A DNA stretch of 64,000 bases from Olleya sp. Bg11-27. GTDB taxonomy: Bacteria > Bacteroidota > Bacteroidia > Flavobacteriales > Flavobacteriaceae. Both the position numbers and the translations under genes were made by a program. The notes beneath the pieces were generated by a model that did not search any database, was not told the origin of the DNA, and saw only the letters and a program-made list of their open reading frames with translations. Position 1 is the first letter of the stretch, and every line of letters starts with the position of its first letter. Below, in pieces: positions 17,087 through 28,791 of this stretch. The stretch covers positions 689,514-753,513 of the forward strand of contig NZ_CP025117.1 of NCBI RefSeq assembly GCF_002831645.1, read 5' to 3'.

Positions 17087-18595
17087 TTATAACGTTTCGA
17101 TAAGTTTTTCGAGACGTGTTATACTTTCATTTTTTCCAATCATAAACATGATATCAAAAACGTCAGGTCCTTGTAAGGCACCAACTAATGCTAAACGTAA
17201 AGGCATCATAACCTTTCCAAAGCCAATGTCTTTAGCGGTTATCCAACCTTTTACTTCTTTTTGAAGCGTTTCTACTTCAAAATCTGTAATGTTAGAAACT
17301 ACTGCTAATACATCAGTCATTATGGACTTAGTATCTTCTTTAAATGCCTTTTTAGAGGCTTTTTCGTCATAACTTTTTGGAGCTACAAAAAAGTAACTAC
17401 TTAAATCCCAGAAATCATTTACAAAAGAGGCACGTTCTTTAACTAAGCCTACAACTAAAGCAATGTAATTAATATCTATTGCTGTTAATTCACTACGATT
17501 TTTTTGGAATGCTTCTGCTAAATCTTCATTAGACTGCTCTTGCATATAATGGTGATTAAACCATTTAATTTTATCTGGATCAAAACGTGCTCCTGCCTTA
17601 TTAACGCGGTCTAAATCAAAAGCAGCAACTAATTGCTCTAAGGTAAACATCTCTTGTTCTGTCCCTGGATTCCATCCTAGAAAGGCTAAAAAGTTAATGA
17701 CTGCATCTGCAAAATAACCTTCCTCTTTATAACCTTTTGCAGTATCTCCAAACTCAGGATTCCATTCTAATGGAAACACTGGGAAGCCTAATTTATCACC
17801 ATCACGTTTACTTAATTTTCCTTTACCTGTTGGTTTTAAAATTAATGGTAGATGTGCAAATTCGGGTTGATCCCAACCAAAAGCCTTGTATAATTGATAG
17901 TGTAAAGCTAAGCTAGGTAACCATTCTTCTCCACGGATAACATGAGTGATTTCCATTAAATGGTCATCAACAATATTAGCTAAGTGATAGGTTGGCATAC
18001 CATCCGACTTAAATAACACTTTGTCATCTAAGACGTTAGTATCAATTTTTATATCACCACGTATAATATCTTTTAAGCGTAATGTTTCGTCTTGTGGACT
18101 TTTAAATCTAATCACAAAATCATCGCCTGCCGTTAATTTAGCACTAACCTCGTCTGTACTAAGTGATAAAGAATTGCTTAATTTTAATCGGTTATGCCAA
18201 TTGTAAATAAACGTTTTGCCTTTAGATTCATGATCTGTTCTGTGATAATCTAGCTCTTCAGACGTGTCAAAAGCGTAGTAAGCATTGCCGCTAGCTATTA
18301 ATTGCTCTGCATATTGTTTGTATAAGTCTTTACGTTCGCTTTGCCTGTAGGGTCCAAATTTTTCATTTTTACCTGGGCCTTCATCAAAAGGAATATTACA
18401 CCAATTTAGGGCATCTACTATATATTGTTCTGCACCTTCAACGTAACGGTTTTGGTCTGTATCTTCAATACGTAATACAAAAGTACCGTTATGCTTTTTT
18501 GCAAATAGATAGTTAAAAAGCGCTGTACGTACGCCTCCAATATGTAAAGGTCCAGTTGGACTTGGTGCAAAACGCACTCTGACTTGTTTTGACAT
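17087..18595 (-). CDS. gltX: Glutamyl-tRNA synthetase
   Basis: Class Ib synthetase charging tRNA-Glu, 502 residues. The HIGH-type motif is PSPTGPLHIGGVRTALFN (from residue 11) and the KMSKS-type motif is KLSKRDGDK (about residue 258). A helical anticodon-binding C-terminus follows, as in other bacterial GluRS. Because glnS is also present in the window, this GluRS is presumably discriminating. It has its own promoter (TTG, spacer, TATCTTTG) and shares a bidirectional terminator with the barrel gene. Confidence 0.96.
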   Translation of the reverse strand: MSKQVRVRFAPSPTGPLHIGGVRTALFNYLFAKKHNGTFVLRIEDTDQNRYVEGAEQYIVDALNWCNIPFDEGPGKNEKFGPYRQSERKDLYKQYAEQLIASGNAYYAFDTSEELDYHRTDHESKGKTFIYNWHNRLKLSNSLSLSTDEVSAKLTAGDDFVIRFKSPQDETLRLKDIIRGDIKIDTNVLDDKVLFKSDGMPTYHLANIVDDHLMEITHVIRGEEWLPSLALHYQLYKAFGWDQPEFAHLPLILKPTGKGKLSKRDGDKLGFPVFPLEWNPEFGDTAKGYKEEGYFADAVINFLAFLGWNPGTEQEMFTLEQLVAAFDLDRVNKAGARFDPDKIKWFNHHYMQEQSNEDLAEAFQKNRSELTAIDINYIALVVGLVKERASFVNDFWDLSSYFFVAPKSYDEKASKKAFKEDTKSIMTDVLAVVSNITDFEVETLQKEVKGWITAKDIGFGKVMMPLRLALVGALQGPDVFDIMFMIGKNESITRLEKLIETL

Positions 18596-18682
18596 CTTAT
18601 ATTATAAAAATTAGCACTTTAACATACCATGTTTAAGTGACATATAAATTGTAATCCTAAACGTGTTTCAGGATATAGATTG

Positions 18683-18710
18683 CAAAGATAGAATAGAGTA
18701 GTAGAAACAA
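18683..18710 (-). promoter_or_regulatory. Promoter of gltX (TTG-N17-TATCTTTG)
   Basis: On the minus strand TTG (plus-strand 18708-18710) and TATCTTTG (plus-strand 18683-18690) are 17 bases apart. This is a full match to the Bacteroidota -33/-7 consensus. The gltX start is about 87 bases downstream. Confidence 0.65.
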
Positions 18711-18844
18711 CAAAGAAATAATAAAGAACAATTAAATACGCGGCATAATTTCTGCGAAAGCAAATATCTTTAACATTAACTTATATTCCAATGTATTTAA
18801 GTGTAAAAATAAAATAGTATTTTAGTCAGTTAAATACCAATTAT

Positions 18845-21800
18845 TTGAATAACTTTAATAATATACAGTCCAAATTAGAACAATTTATTAGAAAATATTA
18901 CACTAATGAATTGATAAAAGGTGTCATTTTGTTTTTTAGTATTGGACTGCTGTACTTTCTTTTTACTTTGTTGATAGAACACTTTTTATGGCTGAATTCT
19001 TCTGCTAGAACGCTCTTGTTTTGGTTGTTTGTAGCAGTAGAATTAGCACTTTTTGTTAAATTTATTGTCTTTCCATTGGCTAAGTTATTCAAACTTCAAA
19101 AGGGGATTGGCTATAAAGAGGCATCAACAATAATTGGTAATCATTTTCCGGAAGTAAGTGATAAATTATTAAATGTATTACAACTTAAAGAGGAAGCAAA
19201 TACATCAGAGTTGCTTTTAGCAAGTATTGATCAAAAGTCCAAAGCGCTGGATCCTATTCCGTTTAAATTAGCCGTTAACTTTAAACAAAATATTAAATAT
19301 TTAAAATATGCTGCTATTCCTGTAGTAATATTAATTATTTCTGCTATTTCGGGTAAAATGAATTGGTTTAGCGACAGCTACGAGCGTGTGGTTAATTATC
19401 AAACGGCTTATGAGGCACCGGCGCCTTTTACGTTTTTTGTGTTGAATGAAGACTTACAGACGACAGAGAATAAAGAATTTAGGTTATTAGTAACGACTGA
19501 AGGAGATGTAATACCAGAAGAGGCGCAAATTACTTTTAACAACGAAACTTATTTTTTGCAACAACGCGAAACGGGAAGTTTTGAATATGTTTTCGAACAG
19601 CCAAGCCAAGAGATTACGTTTACATTAGCGGCTAATGGTGTGACCTCTAAACCGTATACCTTAAAGGTTGTTGAGGTACCAACATTACTTAGTTTTAATA
19701 TGGTTTTAAATTATCCAGGGTACACCAATAAGCGGGATGAAATTTTGAAAGGGATAGGTAATGCGACAGTTCCGCAAGGAACAAAAGTGACATGGGAGTT
19801 AAAGACTAGGGCTACAAATCGGGTAGACTTAATAAGCTTGGATACAATAGCATTTGTAGGCTCTAAAATGGGTGTATTTAGTGCAACTAAACCCATTTTT
19901 AATAATTTTGATTATAATATTAGTACCAGCAATAAAGCGCTAAAAAATTATGAGAATTTGTCTTATAATATTCAAGTGATTAAAGATCAGTATCCGGAGC
20001 TTACTTTGGTGTCTAAAATGGATAGTTTGGACAAACAATCGTTATATTTTAAAGGACAGGTTAGTGATGATTATGGTTTGAGTAAACTACAATTAGTGTA
20101 TTATCCTAGCGGTAATGAAGCGGAAAAGAAGGTCATGACGATTCCGGTGGCTAAAGCTAATTTTGATCAGTTTATAATTGCTTTTCCTAATACGCTAGTA
20201 ATTGAAGAAGGGCTGTCGTACGATTTGTTTTTTCAGGTATTTGATAATGATGCTGTTAGTAAAAATAAGAGTACTAAAAGTGAAGTATTTACCTATAGGA
20301 AGCGAACGCAAGATGAAGAGGAACAAAAACAATTGCAAGAACAGAGCGAAACGATACAGAATTTAAATAAATCCTTAGAGACGTTTGATAAGCAACAAAA
20401 AGAATTGCAAGAATTGTCTAAAACTCAAAAAGAAAAATCTGAACTAAACTTTAATGATAAGAAAAAATTCGAAAATTTTCTGAAACGTCAAAAAGAACAA
20501 GATCAGATGATGAAACAGTTTAACAAAAAGTTGAAAGATAATTTAGAGGAATTTCAAAAGGATAAAGAGGAAAATGACGCATTTAAAGAGGATTTAAAGG
20601 AGCGTTTAAAAGATAATGAAGAACAACTTAAGAAACATGAGAAACTGCTTAAGGAGTTAGAAGAATTACGTGAAAAATTTAGTAAAGAAAAATTTTCGAA
20701 GAAGTTAGATAATTTGGCAAAGAAGGCTAAAAGTCAGAAGCGAAGTTTAGAGCAGTTAGTCGAGTTGACTAAACGGTATTATGTGACCAAAAAAATGGAG
20801 AAGATTGGTGACGACTTGGACAAATTGGCAAAGGAGCAAGATAAACTTGCTAATTCTAAAACGGAAGAGAATACAAAAGATAAACAGGATGATATCAATA
20901 AAAAGTTTGAAGCACTTCAGGAGCAATTAAAACAATTGGAAAAGGATAATAATGATTTGAAAAAACCAATGGATGTGCCGCGAAATGAAAATAATGAAGA
21001 AAATATTAAAAGTGAACAACAAGACGCTAGTGAAGATTTAAAAAGTAAAGAAGAATCGCAAGACCAGAAGGAGAAAAAACAGAAACAAGAATCTGCTAAG
21101 AAGAAACAGAAAAGTGCTGCTCAAAAAATGAAAAAAATGAGTATGAGTATGCAGATGCAAATGTCTGGAGCAGCCCAGGATCAGTTGGAAGAGGATATTG
21201 CAATGTTGCGTCAAATACTCGATAATTTGGTTGTTTTTTCAATGGATCAAGAAAGCTTAATGAATAAGTTTAAGGGTATTGAAATTAATCATAACGAATA
21301 TGCTACTTATTTAAAAAAACAAAAGGAGCTCCGTACACATTTTGAACATGTCGATGATAGCTTGTTTGCAATATCAATGCGACAGCCAAAATTTTCTGAA
21401 GATATTTATAGAGAGATTAACGAAGTTTATTTTTATATAGATAAATCGCTTGAAGAGTTTTCGGAAAATGGAATTTATCAAGGCGTGTCTTCTCAGCAAT
21501 ATGTTTTAACTGGAGCTAATAATTTAGCTGATTTTTTGAGTGATGCGTTAGATAATTTGCAAAACCAAAGTGGTATGCCTATGCCTGGTCAAGGTGAAGG
21601 AGGTATGCCTATGCCGGATATTATTATTAGTCAAGAGGAATTGACTAAAAAAATGGAAAAAGGGATGAAGAAGGGAGAAGAAGGAGAGAAAGGTAAAGAA
21701 GGCGAAAAAGGTAAAGAAGGAGAGAAAGGAAGTGAAGGAGAAGATGAAGGTGAGGGAAAGAATGGTAAAAATGGAAAGGATGGTAAATCTGGTAAAGGTG

Positions 21801-22685: not shown

Positions 22686-22733
22686 TTTGGTTTTTTGTTT
22701 TTTGGGATTCAATTTTTAAATAAAAAAGAAAAC

Positions 22734-22747
22734 GTTCCACGTGGAAC
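22734..22747. promoter_or_regulatory. parS-like palindrome 1
   Basis: GTTCCACGTGGAAC is a perfect 14-base palindrome, the same as the core of chromosomal ParB-binding parS sites (TGTTCCACGTGGAACA-type). It lies between ybeY and mnmG. Confidence 0.75.
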
Positions 22748-22824
22748 AATAATTAAAAATCATACTTGAGTAAAGGGGTGTTCAGATTTTCTGTTCAGCT
22801 TAGAGGTTGGGTAAAACAAATATT

Positions 22825-24696
22825 ATGTTTAACGAAGTTTACGATGTGATTGTAGTTGGTGCTGGTCACGCAGGAAGTGAGGCGGCAGCGTCAGCTGCTA
22901 ATATGGGAAGCAAGACTTTGCTTATTACTATGAATTTACAAAACATCGCACAGATGTCTTGTAACCCTGCGATGGGAGGAATAGCGAAAGGACAAATTGT
23001 TAGAGAGATTGATGCGCTTGGAGGTTATTCTGGAATTGTGAGTGATACTTCTGCGATTCAATTTAAGATGTTGAATAAATCTAAGGGACCTGCAATGTGG
23101 AGTCCAAGAGTGCAAAGTGATAGAATGCGTTTTGCAGAAGATTGGCGTTTGATTTTAGAACAAACAAAAAATCTTGATTTTTATCAAGAAATGGTTTCTG
23201 GGTTAATTGTTGAGAATGGAAAAGTTTGTGGGGTAACAACGTCTCTTGGTGTTAAGATTAGATCAAAATCTGTAGTACTTACAAATGGAACTTTTTTGAA
23301 TGGTCTTATTCATATAGGTGATAAAAATTTTGGTGGAGGTAGAGCAGGTGAAAGAGCGGCAACTGGAATTACTGAGCAGTTGGTTAATTTAGGTTTTGAA
23401 TCTGGTAGAATGAAAACAGGGACACCGCCAAGAGTAGATGGTCGATCTTTGGATTTCTCAAAAATGGTAGAACAACCTGGTGATGTTAATCCGGAAAAGT
23501 TTTCGTTTTTGGATACTACAAAACCATTAACGCATCAGCGTTCTTGTCACATGTCATATACAAGTGAAAAGGTTCATGATTTACTTCGTGAGGGATTTGA
23601 TCGCTCACCAATGTTTAATGGTAGAATTAAAAGTTTAGGTCCAAGATATTGTCCTTCTATTGAAGATAAGATAAATCGTTTTGCGGATAAGAACAGACAT
23701 CAATTATTCGTTGAACCAGAAGGATGGAATACTGTAGAATATTATATAAATGGTTTTTCTACATCGCTCCCAGAAGATGTTCAATTTAAAGCATTACGTT
23801 CTGTGGTTGGATTTGAAAATGTGAAATTTTTCAGACCAGGTTATGCAATCGAATATGATTATTTTCCACCGACGCAATTAAAACATACTTTAGAAACTAA
23901 GTTGATTGACGGCTTGTTTTTTGCAGGTCAAATTAATGGAACTACTGGATATGAAGAGGCGGCTTCTCAAGGTTTAATGGCGGGTATTAATGCGGCCTTG
24001 AAAGTTCAGGAACGCGATCCTTTTATTCTTAAAAGAGATGAAGCATATATCGGAGTATTGGTTGATGATTTAATTACGAAGGGAACAGAAGAGCCGTATC
24101 GTATGTTTACGTCGAGAGCAGAATACAGAACATTATTGCGCCAGGATAATGCCGATATTAGATTAACGCCAAAAGGTTTTGATTTAGGTTTGGCGTCAGA
24201 AAAACGGCTACGTCGCATGGAGGTGAAGCATAATGCCGCAGAGAAATTTGTTCAGTTTTTTAGAGATACTAGTGTGACTCCAGAGGAGATTAATCCCGCT
24301 TTGGAAGCTAAAGGTTCGGCTGCGATTAGACAACAAGATAAGATGTTTAAAATGTTTGCAAGACCTAATGTGACGATAGAGGATATGAAGGAGGTGTCTT
24401 CTGTTTCGAGGTATATTGAAGATCATAATCTGGATAATGAGATCATTGAGCAAACAGAAATTCAGGTTAAGTATTCGGGGTATATTGCTAAGGAAAAGAG
24501 TAATGCGGATAAGTTAACACGTCTAGAAAATATTAAGATACCTGAAGGTTTTGATTACTCTAAATTGCAATCTATGAGTTTTGAAGCAAGGGAAAAGCTG
24601 GGTAAAATACAACCGGTAACTATATCTCAGGCCTCAAGAATTAGCGGAGTTTCACCTTCTGATATTTCCGTTTTATTAGTGTATATGGGAAGATAG
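22825..24696 (+). CDS. mnmG: tRNA uridine 5-carboxymethylaminomethyl modification enzyme MnmG
   Basis: FAD-dependent enzyme (also called GidA) that, with MnmE, modifies U34 of certain tRNAs; cytosolic. The ATG at 22825 gives the usual family start MFNEVYDVIVVGAGHAGSEA with the FAD-binding GAGHAG at about residues 12-17, so the TTG at 22807 is unlikely. Other family motifs are 'MSCNPAMGGIAKGQIVREID', 'RGPAMWSPR' in the form KGPAMWSPR, 'YCPSIEDKI' and 'GQINGTTGYEEAASQGL'. The length of 623 residues is normal. It is flanked by parS-like palindromes on both sides; gidA often lies near the replication origin in other phyla. Confidence 0.97.
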   Translation: MFNEVYDVIVVGAGHAGSEAAASAANMGSKTLLITMNLQNIAQMSCNPAMGGIAKGQIVREIDALGGYSGIVSDTSAIQFKMLNKSKGPAMWSPRVQSDRMRFAEDWRLILEQTKNLDFYQEMVSGLIVENGKVCGVTTSLGVKIRSKSVVLTNGTFLNGLIHIGDKNFGGGRAGERAATGITEQLVNLGFESGRMKTGTPPRVDGRSLDFSKMVEQPGDVNPEKFSFLDTTKPLTHQRSCHMSYTSEKVHDLLREGFDRSPMFNGRIKSLGPRYCPSIEDKINRFADKNRHQLFVEPEGWNTVEYYINGFSTSLPEDVQFKALRSVVGFENVKFFRPGYAIEYDYFPPTQLKHTLETKLIDGLFFAGQINGTTGYEEAASQGLMAGINAALKVQERDPFILKRDEAYIGVLVDDLITKGTEEPYRMFTSRAEYRTLLRQDNADIRLTPKGFDLGLASEKRLRRMEVKHNAAEKFVQFFRDTSVTPEEINPALEAKGSAAIRQQDKMFKMFARPNVTIEDMKEVSSVSRYIEDHNLDNEIIEQTEIQVKYSGYIAKEKSNADKLTRLENIKIPEGFDYSKLQSMSFEAREKLGKIQPVTISQASRISGVSPSDISVLLVYMGR

Positions 24697-24707
24697 ATTT
24701 AAGTTTT

Positions 24708-24739
24708 AAAGGGAACGTTCCACGTGGAACGTTCCCTTT
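24708..24739. terminator. mnmG terminator made of a 32-base perfect palindrome
   Basis: Every base from 24708 to 24739 pairs with its mirror position: AAAGGGAACGTTCCAC on one side, GTGGAACGTTCCCTTT on the other. The 3' side continues in T's, so the RNA could form a terminator. The parS-like core lies exactly in the centre. Confidence 0.7.
24717..24730. promoter_or_regulatory. parS-like palindrome 2
   Basis: GTTCCACGTGGAAC, identical to site 1, in the centre of the larger palindrome after mnmG. Confidence 0.75.
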
Positions 24740-25858
24740 TATTTTGTCTATTGTTTAGAAATGGTGTTGAATGTCGGGTTTGTATTTAGTGAGTATTGAA
24801 AGTTTAGTTTGTTTAATTAGGTCGTTTGTTTTGTCTATTTGGACTTTTTATTGTTCTTTTTTTTAAGGCTTATTTAGCTTTTTATTGGTATGACTTCTTT
24901 TCTTTTTATGAGTGTTATTTCTTTTTGTAGGCGTTTAAATATTCTTTTTTTAAAGTTTATGATGAAGGATTAAAATGAGATTTGGAACGTTGTTTAGGTC
25001 TTTTTTTTAGTGTAATTATATCTAATTTACTTTATTTTGATGTCGTTTGTATAAGCCTTTTGTTTTGTTTTTAAGAGTTTTTTTTATTTCATCGAGATGG
25101 AATATATGGTTTTTTTGAAGCTGTTTTCGATTGAGTTTGTCTGTTTTTTGTTGGTTTTTTTCGTTTATGTTTTTAAGAAAAGTGTCTTAATAGAGGTTAG
25201 AATATTTAAATTGCTATGTTTTATTTACCTTATAATGGTCAATTAATTACCTTGATTTAGTATTTTTTGAACTAGAATAGCCGTAGTTTTTTAGTGTTTT
25301 GTGTTCTTTTTTTAAGTGTTTATAGTCTGTTATTATGCTTTTATTTTATCTAAAATGGTTTAATAGAGTAGGAGGAAGTCGATATTTTGAGGTTTATTTT
25401 GGTCGTTTATTTTGATTTTTATCTCGTATTACAGCAAATTATAAGGATGAATTATTACTTTTTTTACGTTTATACGGTAGGTATAGTGATGCGGTTTTCG
25501 GTTAAATCGGCGCTGTAAATTGTTTTTATAAAGGCTATTTGTTCCTTTTTGTTGAGTATATTTTGATTGTTGTGTCGTTAATTGTGTTGCTTGTAATTTA
25601 AAATAACGTTGTGTATTTGCTAGTGTCGTGTGTTCTTGGGGCAATATTTTTGTGTTGTTTGAGGTTGAAAAGGGGTGAATTAGGCGCTTTATTGGTTTAG
25701 AAATAGGGTTAAATAATGACTTGTTTAGTATTCTAAATTGGTATAATCGTCTTGTTTTAGTTATGCTTTAACGCCTAGTATAGATATTTTTTTATTGATT
25801 TCAGCGGTGGTTGACTTGAATTGATGGGTATTAGTGTTTCTTAATTTATGGATTTTAG

Positions 25859-25874
25859 TGTTCCTCTTGGAACA
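25859..25874. promoter_or_regulatory. parS-like site 3 (variant)
   Basis: TGTTCCTCTTGGAACA. The outer arms TGTTCC/GGAACA are intact, and the centre CACGTG is changed to TCTTGG-type sequence. It is the most diverged copy of the series and may bind weakly or not at all. Confidence 0.5.
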
Positions 25875-26087
25875 TTTTGGCTCTGTTTGTAGTTGTAAAG
25901 TGAATATATTATGATTTATTAGCCCTTAAAAGTCCTAGAACATGTGCTGTTTTGTAGTATTAAATGCTTGTGGTAAGTGTATTTTTTGGTTTTATTTATT
26001 CAGTTTTTATATGTTTTTTCTGTTGATTAGAGTGTAAATAGTTTAGTATAACATGGGATATAACGCTGGTTATTCTTCCTGTTTTAG

Positions 26088-26103
26088 TGTTCCTCGTGGA
26101 ACA
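26088..26103. promoter_or_regulatory. parS-like site 4 (variant)
   Basis: TGTTCCTCGTGGAACA differs from the perfect palindrome at one central base (A to T). It marks the start of the first long repeat. Confidence 0.65.
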
Positions 26104-26531
26104 ATTTGCTTTTATTTAATGTGTAAAGGAGTGGTAAGAACGTTTTTTTAGAGTTTTTTTCTGCTTATAGAAGGCTTGTTTAACTGTTTAAAGTTCTTTA
26201 AAGAGTGTGTTTATCGTGTTATTTGTGTCTTTATTTAGATGCTTTTTTAGTATTAGAGTATAAATACAGAGGTTTATTATAAATTAAAAGTTAAGATTAT
26301 TGGCGTATTGGGCTCTTTTATCATGGGGTAATCGTTCACTAAGTAGTTTTGTAATGACATATTTAAAGGGTTTAGTTAGCCGTAAGTCGTCTTATAAACG
26401 TCTTTTTTGATTGGTTTATATGACGGAAGTCTTAAGTTTAAATTCAAATTAAGATGTTTTTTTTAGGGTAATGTATACTAATAGTAGGTGGTTGTATGTG
26501 AAAAGAGAGTTGTTTATTTGTGGTTTTTTTG
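26088..26531 (+). repeat. Long tandem repeat unit A (444 bp)
   Basis: It begins with parS-like site 4 and is followed directly by unit B. Shared exact words keep a constant offset of 444: ttatttaatgtgtaaag (26112-26128 and 26556-26572), agtagttttgtaa (26342-26354 and 26786-26798) and cttataaacgtcttttttg (26391-26409 and 26835-26853). The units are imperfect copies with many substitutions between these blocks. Confidence 0.8.
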
Positions 26532-26547
26532 TGTTCCTCGTGGAACA
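26532..26547. promoter_or_regulatory. parS-like site 5 (variant)
   Basis: TGTTCCTCGTGGAACA, identical to site 4, 444 bases downstream of it, at the head of repeat unit B. Confidence 0.65.
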
Positions 26548-26970
26548 ATGGTGTGTTATTTAATGTGTAAAGAGTGGGTAAAAAGCTTTTTTGAGATTAT
26601 TTTTGGCTTCCAGAAGGTTTTTTTAGCTGTTTGAAGTTTTATAAAGAATGTGTTTATCTACTGGTTTGTGTCTTTATGTAGTTGCTTTTTTTAGTATTAT
26701 AGGGTAAATACAGAGGTGTATAATTAGTTAAAAGCAAAGCGTGTTGCTGGATAGCGCGCTGTTATGATAGGGTAATCGTGCACTTAGTAGTTTTGTAAAG
26801 ACATATTTAAAGGTTTTATTGAGGTGTAAGTAGTCTTATAAACGTCTTTTTTGTTAGTTTACATGGTATAAATCTTTAGTTTAAATTGAAATTAAGATGT
26901 TTTTTAGGTTAGTTAATACTATTAATAAGTGGGTGCATGTGAAAATAGAGTTGTTTATTTGGGGTTCTAA
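26532..26970 (+). repeat. Long tandem repeat unit B (439 bp)
   Basis: Imperfect copy of unit A, lying directly after it and 5 bases shorter. Besides the blocks given for unit A, both share 'gtaaatacagaggt'-like and 'aaattaagatgttttt' words. Both end in a 'gagttgtttatttg' word just before the next parS-like site. Confidence 0.8.
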
Positions 26971-26986
26971 TGTTCCTCGTGGAACA
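26971..26986. promoter_or_regulatory. parS-like site 6 (variant)
   Basis: TGTTCCTCGTGGAACA, identical to sites 4 and 5, closing the tandem array 48 bases before the methyltransferase start. Confidence 0.65.
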
Positions 26987-27033
26987 ATGAGTCGTTATTA
27001 AAATAAAAAAAAGTATAAATAAGCTACCTTTTT

Positions 27034-27924
27034 TTGGGTAAGCTATCTAAAATAGTATTGATTGTGGTAAGTGAAAATGGTAAAAAAGTGTTGTTTAAAG
27101 TAAAGGATCACTCTGTTTCTGGTGAAGAATTTCATTTGTTAGAACATAAAAAGTATGGCTATTTGAAGACAATCCCTAAACCGCCATTGGGTAAATTAGG
27201 TGAATATTATCAAACAGAAGACTATATTTCTCATACAGATTCTAGAAGAAACTTGTTTGAAATGGTGTATCATGCTATCCGAAAGGTGTCTTTAAAGCGT
27301 AAACTAAACCTGATTAATTCGTTCGAATTAGAGGGCAAAACGCTATTAGATTTTGGATCTGGGACTGGTGATTTCCTTAAAACTGTTCAAAGTAATGGTT
27401 GGAATGTTTCGGGAATTGAACCAAATGAGGCGGCTAGAGGTATAGCGAATAGTAAAACTAATGGTTCTGTTTTTGAATCAAAGCAACTAAATACGTTTGA
27501 AAAAAAGAGTTTTGATGTGATTACCTTGTGGCATGTACTAGAACATGTTCCAGATTTAGAAGAAAAGATAGCTGTTCTTAAGTCGTTACTTAAGCCAAAT
27601 GGGGTGTTATTAATTGCTGTTCCTAACTATAAAAGTTACGACGCAGAGCATTATAAACAGTATTGGGCAGCGTATGATGTACCAAGACATTTATGGCATT
27701 TTGATCAAAAATCAATTTCAAATCTGTTTTATAGTATTAGTATGTCGGTTAAAAAAACGATACCTATGGTTTTTGATTCGTATTATGTGAGTCTTTTATC
27801 TGAAAAGTATAAATCGGGAGGCCTGACTATTTTTAGAGCATTTAGGATTGGATTTGTCTCAAATCGTAAAGCAAAGGCTTCAGGAGAGTATTCTTCATTG
27901 ATTTATGTGCTAAAAAATAGCTAA
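27034..27924 (+). CDS. Class I SAM-dependent methyltransferase
   Basis: A soluble protein of up to 296 residues. The SAM-binding motif I is LLDFGSGTGDFL (about residues 108-119), followed by the acidic 'GIEPNEAA' and 'FDVITLWHVLEHVPD' typical of Methyltransf_11/23-like enzymes. The 'SGEEFHLLEH...YYQTEDYISHTDSRRNLFEMVYHA' N-terminus is seen in flavobacterial homologues next to mnmG. No cysteine is present, so there is no N-terminal zinc ribbon. The start is uncertain: no in-frame ATG occurs before residue 77. TTG 27034, GTG 27064 and GTG 27088 are all possible, and the last would start MLFKVKDHSVSGEE. The substrate is unknown. Confidence 0.8.
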   Translation: MGKLSKIVLIVVSENGKKVLFKVKDHSVSGEEFHLLEHKKYGYLKTIPKPPLGKLGEYYQTEDYISHTDSRRNLFEMVYHAIRKVSLKRKLNLINSFELEGKTLLDFGSGTGDFLKTVQSNGWNVSGIEPNEAARGIANSKTNGSVFESKQLNTFEKKSFDVITLWHVLEHVPDLEEKIAVLKSLLKPNGVLLIAVPNYKSYDAEHYKQYWAAYDVPRHLWHFDQKSISNLFYSISMSVKKTIPMVFDSYYVSLLSEKYKSGGLTIFRAFRIGFVSNRKAKASGEYSSLIYVLKNS

Positions 27925-28153: not shown

Positions 28154-28666
28154 ATGAAAAAAATATTTGGTTTACTATTAGTTGTGTCTGTTTTTACTTC
28201 TTGTCAAAAACAAAAAATTGCTTTTATTGATAATGGAGAAGTGATAAACAAGATTCAAGAAAAATTAGATTTAGAAGAGAGTTACAAAAAGACTCTAGAT
28301 AAGTTTAATGCTAGAAGAGATAGTTTAGGAAAAGATTTTCAAATGGAAGCGCAAAAATTTCAAATGGAAGCACAAAGTATGCCAGCTCAAAAAGCTCAAG
28401 CTAAGTATGACGAGTTAGGTCAAAAGCAACAAATGTTGCAACAAAGACTTCAGGCGGAGCAACAGCAAATTTCAGAACCTTTTCAAAAAGATATGGATTC
28501 TTTAATTTCTAAGGTAAAAACGTATGTAAACGACTATGGTAAAAACAATGGTTATGATTATATATTAGGTACAAGTGACGCTAGTCCTTCTGTTTTATTT
28601 GGTAAGAAAGAGAATGATATTTCTACTACTATAATTGAAGGTTTAAATGCTTCTTATAAGAAATAG
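28154..28666 (+). CDS. OmpH/Skp family lipoprotein
   Basis: Periplasmic protein of 170 residues. The lipoprotein signal peptide ends in TSC with the lipidated Cys at position 17 (MKKIFGLLLVVSVFTSC). The family start 'KIAFIDNGEVINKIQEK' is followed by a long Gln/Lys/Glu-rich coiled-coil region (about 45-125) and a compact C-terminal 'NGYDYILGTSDASPSVLFG' segment. It fits the Skp/OmpH chaperone family, which holds unfolded outer-membrane proteins in the periplasm. A lipidated form is common in Bacteroidota. A strong terminator follows. Confidence 0.9.
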   Translation: MKKIFGLLLVVSVFTSCQKQKIAFIDNGEVINKIQEKLDLEESYKKTLDKFNARRDSLGKDFQMEAQKFQMEAQSMPAQKAQAKYDELGQKQQMLQQRLQAEQQQISEPFQKDMDSLISKVKTYVNDYGKNNGYDYILGTSDASPSVLFGKKENDISTTIIEGLNASYKK

Positions 28667-28689
28667 AAATTTAATATAATAGTTTAAGG

Positions 28690-28723
28690 AAAGGCGATTA
28701 ACGACAGTTAATCGCCTTTTTTG
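28690..28723 (+). terminator. Terminator after the OmpH-like gene
   Basis: AAAGGCGATTAAC (28690-28702) and GTTAATCGCCTTT (28707-28719) form a perfect 13-bp stem with loop GACA, followed by T's. Confidence 0.92.
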
Positions 28724-28791
28724 TGTTATAATAGTCTAAATGTCAACATATTTACTTTTAATACTTCTATTAATTATGTTCAATTTATATT

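Follow-up and report, generated by a model that had tools for sequence, protein, structure and literature searches.

Bacterial centromere sites are normally regarded as isolated 16-bp words, and in ParABS systems each parS loads ParB-CTP clamps that slide along the adjacent DNA. The closest described counterparts of the locus considered here are the chromosomal parS clusters near oriC, such as parS1-4 of Pseudomonas aeruginosa and those of Bacillus subtilis, which have in common with it a TGTTCCACGTGGAACA-type 16-bp palindrome, a position within a few kb of DNA near the origin, and one chromosomal ParB with ParA beside it. To our knowledge these clusters consist of separate single sites rather than of repeats. 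Among eukaryotic centromeres, alpha satellite is arranged in higher-order repeats and carries CENP-B boxes in some of its monomers. Bacteria commonly have their parS sites in tight clusters, which is believed to help prevent SMC collisions (PMC8357415), and the sopC locus of the F plasmid consists of about ten functional 43-bp repeats (PMC7205306).

We have analysed a window of 64,000 nucleotides corresponding to positions 689514-753513 of the single 4.31-Mb contig (the chromosome) of Olleya sp. Bg11-27; positions given below are those of the window unless stated otherwise. The window contains a real, lineage-specific and probably nested tandem expansion of parS DNA, in which the kind of system (ParABS) is known and the architecture is new. 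Among the genomes searched, the array is present only in this species and its sister (genome G005), and a limited search of the open literature found no account of long nested tandem repeats making up a parS array on a chromosome.

The parS cluster and its genomic setting

All six convincing parS sites of the 4.31-Mb chromosome fall within 4.3 kb (Table 1), and no convincing site was found outside this cluster, the genome-wide matches there all having two mismatches and being scattered and non-palindromic. Within the window there are 13 strand-matches with three or fewer mismatches, as compared with 0.27 expected by chance. Judged from the letters, the six sites have the 16-bp palindrome close to TGTTCCACGTGGAACA that marks chromosomal parS, from which the ancestral pair departs at one or two end bases and the array sites at one core base, or at two in the case of 25859. 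The variant TGTTCCTCGTGGAACA has a T at position 7 (referred to below as T7), an asymmetric change common to the array sites that breaks the CACGTG core.

Table 1. Positions of the parS sites, repeat units and neighbouring genes in the window
Feature	Position	Strand	Remarks
parS 1, CGTTCCACGTGGAACA	22733..22748		between ybeY and mnmG, 5' of mnmG; ancestral family site
mnmG (gidA)	22807..24696	+	Pfam GIDA 2.3e-162; between the family's two ancestral parS sites
Non-coding expansion, 2337 bp	24697..27033		between mnmG and the methyltransferase gene; + strand T/G-rich
parS 2, CGTTCCACGTGGAACG	24716-24731	+	mnmG 3' end; within a 32-bp perfect palindrome (24708..24739), then T-rich DNA
Monomer M1, ~228 bp	25631..25858	+	head read as decayed parS, TGTTCTTGGGGCAATA (11/16)
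Monomer O, 229 bp	25859..26087	+	in-register match to A1
Array parS with one change, TGTTCCTCTTGGAACA	25859	+	heads monomer O; G005 counterpart is TGTTCCTCGTGGAACA
Unit A, 444 bp	26088..26531	+	parS-headed; about two monomers, A1 (26088-~26315) and A2 (~26316-26531)
Array parS, exact TGTTCCTCGTGGAACA	26088-26103	+	heads unit A
Unit B, 439 bp	26532..26970	+	parS-headed
Array parS, exact TGTTCCTCGTGGAACA	26532-26547	+	heads unit B
Closing parS, exact TGTTCCTCGTGGAACA	26971..26986	+	ends the array
Methyltransferase gene	27034..27924	+	Pfam Methyltransf_23 2e-28; next after mnmG in relatives examined (synteny)

The two parS sites that flank mnmG are an ancestral pair found throughout Flavobacteriaceae, with a parS located 5' of mnmG in all 23 of the other relatives that were oriented. 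The DNA at parS 2 can form a hairpin of 14 stem pairs followed by a T tail (-23.1 kcal/mol), which resembles an intrinsic terminator, and this mnmG-end parS seems to double as the predicted intrinsic transcription terminator of mnmG. The outer stem has compensatory changes across nine genus members (16 both-side changes, with none of 500 shuffles as high), and it is missing at the mnmG-end parS in most lineages outside the genus. Elsewhere in the neighbourhood, an adjacent DUF4175 protein has its closest named genomes in Tamlana, Algibacter and Marixanthotalea (57-63% identity), followed by Polaribacter (42-44%), and sub-threshold Rfam matches (STnc250, L20 leader) at 28637-28729, at the end of and after an OmpH-like gene, are probably due to chance.

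The cluster is origin-proximal by the position of the GC-skew minimum, from which oriC is placed approximately. Sampled over 40 stretches of 20 kb each and over the window, the skew is negative until about 689 kb of the chromosome and mostly positive from the window to about 2.9 Mb; in a contiguous stretch the cumulative minimum is at 676.3 kb, about 13 kb to the left of the window, and in the sampled sequence the parS cluster is situated approximately 36-40 kb to the right of this minimum. The dnaA gene is at 2.286 Mb, far from the cluster; in gut bacteria including Bacteroidetes dnaA need not mark the origin, whereas parS clusters do (PMC10197239).

The genome encodes one ParB above the curated cut-off, in which ParB_N and HTH_ParB domains are recognised. 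Directly upstream of its gene is that of a ParA-type ATPase (AAA_31); the pair is ordinary and is located at approximately 3.818 Mb, about 1.2 Mb from the array round the circle. No change in the HTH region of ParB sets the two array species apart from other species, and we rejected co-evolution of ParB with T7, as the seven diagnostic positions are outside the HTH region and mostly in the C-terminal part. The T7 16-mer is absent from all 396 other family genomes sampled, a sample that does not include G005, and three Polaribacter genomes have only two parS-like sites each, one of which has the T7 form, in either orientation. The same core change is found, along with a second mismatch, in parS7-9 of P. 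aeruginosa, to which ParB binds in EMSA less well than to the perfect palindromes, and in that species the integrity of the CACGTG core matters for ParB affinity (PMC4368675). Taken with the use of this form in Polaribacter, the binding of parS7-9 suggests by analogy that T7 is probably a weaker but usable ParB site. As one high-affinity oriC-proximal site suffices in P. aeruginosa, the extra array sites may nevertheless do little.

SMC_prok_B gives no match at the cut-off in this genome, and the usual benefit of condensin loading therefore cannot be assumed. A study of two Bacteroidetes likewise reports no recognised condensin (PMC10197239). Weak SMC-type matches are given by an open frame of 1129 aa at chromosomal positions 3574847-3577354 (G000:C1, locus L155), which might be a divergent SMC-like or SbcC-like protein.

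Tandem units and probably nested monomers

The preliminary description of this DNA proposed two long tandem repeats of 444 and 439 bp, each headed by a parS-like site, and both alignment and TRF show this array. Units A and B are 79.9% identical over 438 columns, with a score of 447 as compared with a maximum of 45 in 200 dinucleotide shuffles, so that chance similarity of T-rich DNA fails as an explanation, and TRF reports an array at 26081-26989 with a period of 444, 2.1 copies and 80% matches. The third site that was said to close the array is present at 26971, and the region is non-coding as described, with no open reading frame of at least 80 aa within 24697-27033 and no credible Pfam match beyond chance in six read-through frames.

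The same description saw conserved blocks amid drifted sequence, for which we find no support outside parS. In a four-way alignment of units A and B from the two species, the variable columns outside parS are unclustered (p = 0.19), and the longest invariant run there is 14 columns (expected mean 12.9, p = 0.34). Of all 16-column windows only the parS is free of variable columns, of which the other windows have 5.3 on average; at the background rate, 16 columns would all be invariant with a probability of 0.0014.

Beneath the 444-bp repeat there is a shorter period. When identity in the spacer is plotted against lag, the highest peak in both species is at 443-444, and the next distinct period is 228, again in both (z 5.1 and 4.5), where the largest z at any lag in 100 shuffles of each species is 4.4 and 4.3. 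To compare the monomers, all parS-like heads were masked and only bases common to both species were used. Under these conditions M1 and O are similar in register (z 5.4, 0 of 3000 shuffles), as are O and A1 (z 4.7, 1 of 3000), and out-of-register controls for both pairs are near zero. Of the second halves, B2 matches O at 4 of 3000 shuffles and A2 at 226 of 3000, while the halves inside a unit match only weakly (A1-A2 291 and B1-B2 257 of 3000). Besides the intact sites, the best parS-like word of the spacer in both species is the one at 25631 (TGTTTCTCGGGTAATA, 12/16, in G005), exactly 228 bp before the next site and hence in exact register, and we take it to be a parS that has decayed.

At least three monomers of ~228 bp are shown by these comparisons of sequence. 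It is likely that the 444-bp unit is a dimer of such monomers, and the evidence for the second half of unit A as a monomer is suggestive. Because the unit is about two monomers long, the 444-bp repeat would be the youngest layer of a nested array. The 229-bp piece before unit A had been taken for an older, shortened unit; an older copy it is, although not a shortened 444-bp unit, as it aligns in register with the neighbour upstream of it and also with the opening ~228 bp of unit A, and is thus a monomer. A lattice reaching further to the left was considered, as the distance from 24716 to 25859 is 1143 bp, or 5 x 228.6, but 24733-25402 is not convincingly related to the monomers and the relation of 25403-25630 to them is weak, and we do not claim this extension.

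Distribution among relatives and divergence of the spacer

The sister genome G005 has the same four array sites, at spacings of 229, 444 and 441, and the mnmG genes of the two genomes form a pair with a support of 1.000. Measured to the tblastn start of the methyltransferase gene, the gap after mnmG is 2368 bp here and 2374 bp in G005, as compared with 51-231 bp in most relatives, 815 bp in G004 and 801 bp in G010; in the other genus members examined it is 51-131 bp, G004 excepted. The relatives contain no gene in this gap of which the units could be remnants. As the array is present in two sister species and the gap is short in other members of the genus, the array most likely arose in the common ancestor of the two. 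Units A and B are 90-92% identical to their orthologues in G005 and 74-80% identical to the neighbouring unit; the A/B duplication is therefore older than the separation of the two species, and the units show no sign of having been homogenised.

Two sites flanking mnmG are the norm among relatives. A search with a degenerate parS word in 70 sampled genera gave exactly two matches in 49, one match in 1 and three matches in 18, several of these last including one distant, non-canonical match, and five only in this genome and in G093. Sites numbering 3-5 are carried by G093, G012, G035, G057, G112 and G044, which belong to other genera. In the first five of these, for which the extent of the repeat was determined, independent arrays of the 444-bp type were considered and rejected, as the repeated DNA round parS is only ~20-60 bp. 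In G093 (L147, 6598-10438) and G012 (L148, 10195-13184) there are four or five sites round mnmG and after the methyltransferase gene, the extra ones being independent gains with a repeated flank of only ~20-35 bp. The 815-bp spacer of G004 was also considered as a pre-duplication unit and rejected, the profile match being not significant (E 0.17). This spacer (L050), which follows mnmG, is non-coding and without an extra parS, and contains a short unit-like stretch, TAAATACAG with its neighbours, that is likewise not significant.

Between the two species the spacer has diverged by 0.08-0.12, and the gene-wide dS of 0.34-1.2 is above this. Purifying selection on the whole spacer, as the comparison of 11% with gene-wide dS might indicate, was rejected, because third-position and four-fold divergence falls similarly in the flanking gene ends (8/33 four-fold sites at the mnmG end, 1/24 and 8/28 at the methyltransferase start). 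The low divergence of the spacer is thus local and not proof of constraint, and it comes perhaps from interspecies recombination. Third-position divergence from G005 (L046) dips over a stretch that runs from the mnmG end two thirds of the way into the methyltransferase gene, with another dip at ~18500-19000, and these dips look like patches of such recombination.

The composition of the spacer (GC skew 0.46, AT skew -0.30) resembles that of the four-fold sites of the adjacent + strand genes (T 288, A 202, G 130, C 36), which have T and G in excess in the same direction, and is therefore explained by strand-biased mutation. The simplest reading is of a neutral background in which parS is held by selection, although weakly, with one site dead and one damaged; selection on single sites would be weak, given the second core change at 25859 and the decay of the M1 site.

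Interpretation and comparison with known systems

We propose that one part of the chromosome's own ParABS centromere has probably been expanded to give the array, with extra ParB loading sites coming about by parS-bounded duplication and with birth and decay of parS. In this scheme, where we infer the binding of ParB to T7, the recombination mechanism and the benefit, the common ancestor of the two species would have gained an additional, T7 parS downstream of mnmG, and recombination between neighbouring parS copies would have duplicated the intervening DNA, giving the ~228-bp monomers first and the 444-bp block latest. Recombination between parS-centred homologies is the simplest mechanism, as there is a parS at either end of every unit, and n units would be bounded by n+1 sites because the duplication took the DNA between two sites. 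The single chromosomal ParB would most likely bind the array sites, load as a CTP clamp and slide along the gene-free spacer. Besides the ancestral two there would then be as many as four further loading sites, all within 4.3 kb of DNA near the origin, and the partition complex may be larger or more robust for it; individual extra sites would be dispensable and decay, with a subset kept.

A largely neutral array is a serious rival, although we think it an unlikely one. Here parS palindromes and their flanks would have seeded duplications in a permissive gap, and the extra sites would bind weakly or inconsequentially and be drifting away. The decay of one site and damage to another are as this predicts, and the spacer is near the neutral expectation of its strand in composition and similar to or below nearby four-fold sites in divergence. 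It accounts less well for the sites at 26088, 26532 and 26971, which are identical in both species while in the surrounding DNA the species differ by ~8-10% and the units by ~20-26%.

We consider it very improbable that the units are tandem non-coding RNA genes or a leader RNA of the methyltransferase gene, with parS present by inheritance. A long non-coding repeat upstream of a co-directional gene would suit such a role, as would the weak terminator-like hairpin at site 26088, but the fold energies of the four units on both strands are like those of shuffles (z -1.84 to +0.21), no Bacteroidota-type promoter is found in the spacer of this genome where 2.3 are expected by chance, a sigma-70 scan is at chance level, and the spacer has no Rfam match. 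There is equally little to recommend the remnant of an inserted gene or mobile element, given the Pfam result above, the absence of matches in plasmid or phage collections, and a match elsewhere in the genome of only ~40 bp; the points in its favour are that the spacer is a 2.3-kb insertion relative to most relatives, and that no source was found for its first ~900 bp (24740-25630).

Returning to the proposed expansion of the ParABS centromere, the description of the locus as a satellite-like centromere array stands insofar as it is a parS-headed, tandem, non-coding array near the origin, although it is not free-standing and expands the ordinary mnmG-flanking pair. A further reading, which we hold to be doubtful, is that this is a chromosome with a satellite-style centromere, in which ~228-bp monomers form a dimer whose duplication gave a higher-order repeat, every other monomer has retained its ParB site and the rest have lost theirs, and turnover is by birth and death as in the centromeric satellites of eukaryotes. 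In nature parS has here been multiplied by tandem duplication, probably nested, within one genus whose close relatives keep the two-site state. This offers a before-and-after comparison for the effect of parS number on a chromosome without a recognised SMC condensin, and a small, datable model for the beginnings of repeat-type centromeres.

The locus differs from known chromosomal parS clusters in that four of the six sites share an asymmetric core change and belong to DNA that is tandemly duplicated over long units (228/444 bp). With sopC it shares head-to-tail repeats having one ParB-family site each (SopB in sopC, here by sequence). However, sopC-type loci are on a plasmid beside their own partition genes, with ~43-bp units and a ParB and site of another family, whereas the present array is chromosomal and its 228/444-bp units are diverged and partly decayed. 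The likeness to eukaryotic satellites is one of analogy only, as there are a handful of monomers here, no homology, and sequence-specific loading of ParB as opposed to epigenetic CENP-A. What the two would have in common is that monomers are, here probably, found inside a larger duplicated block and that a protein-binding site is kept in some and lost in others, and, given the likely nesting of ~228-bp monomers beneath the 444-bp repeat, the comparison fits better than was first claimed.
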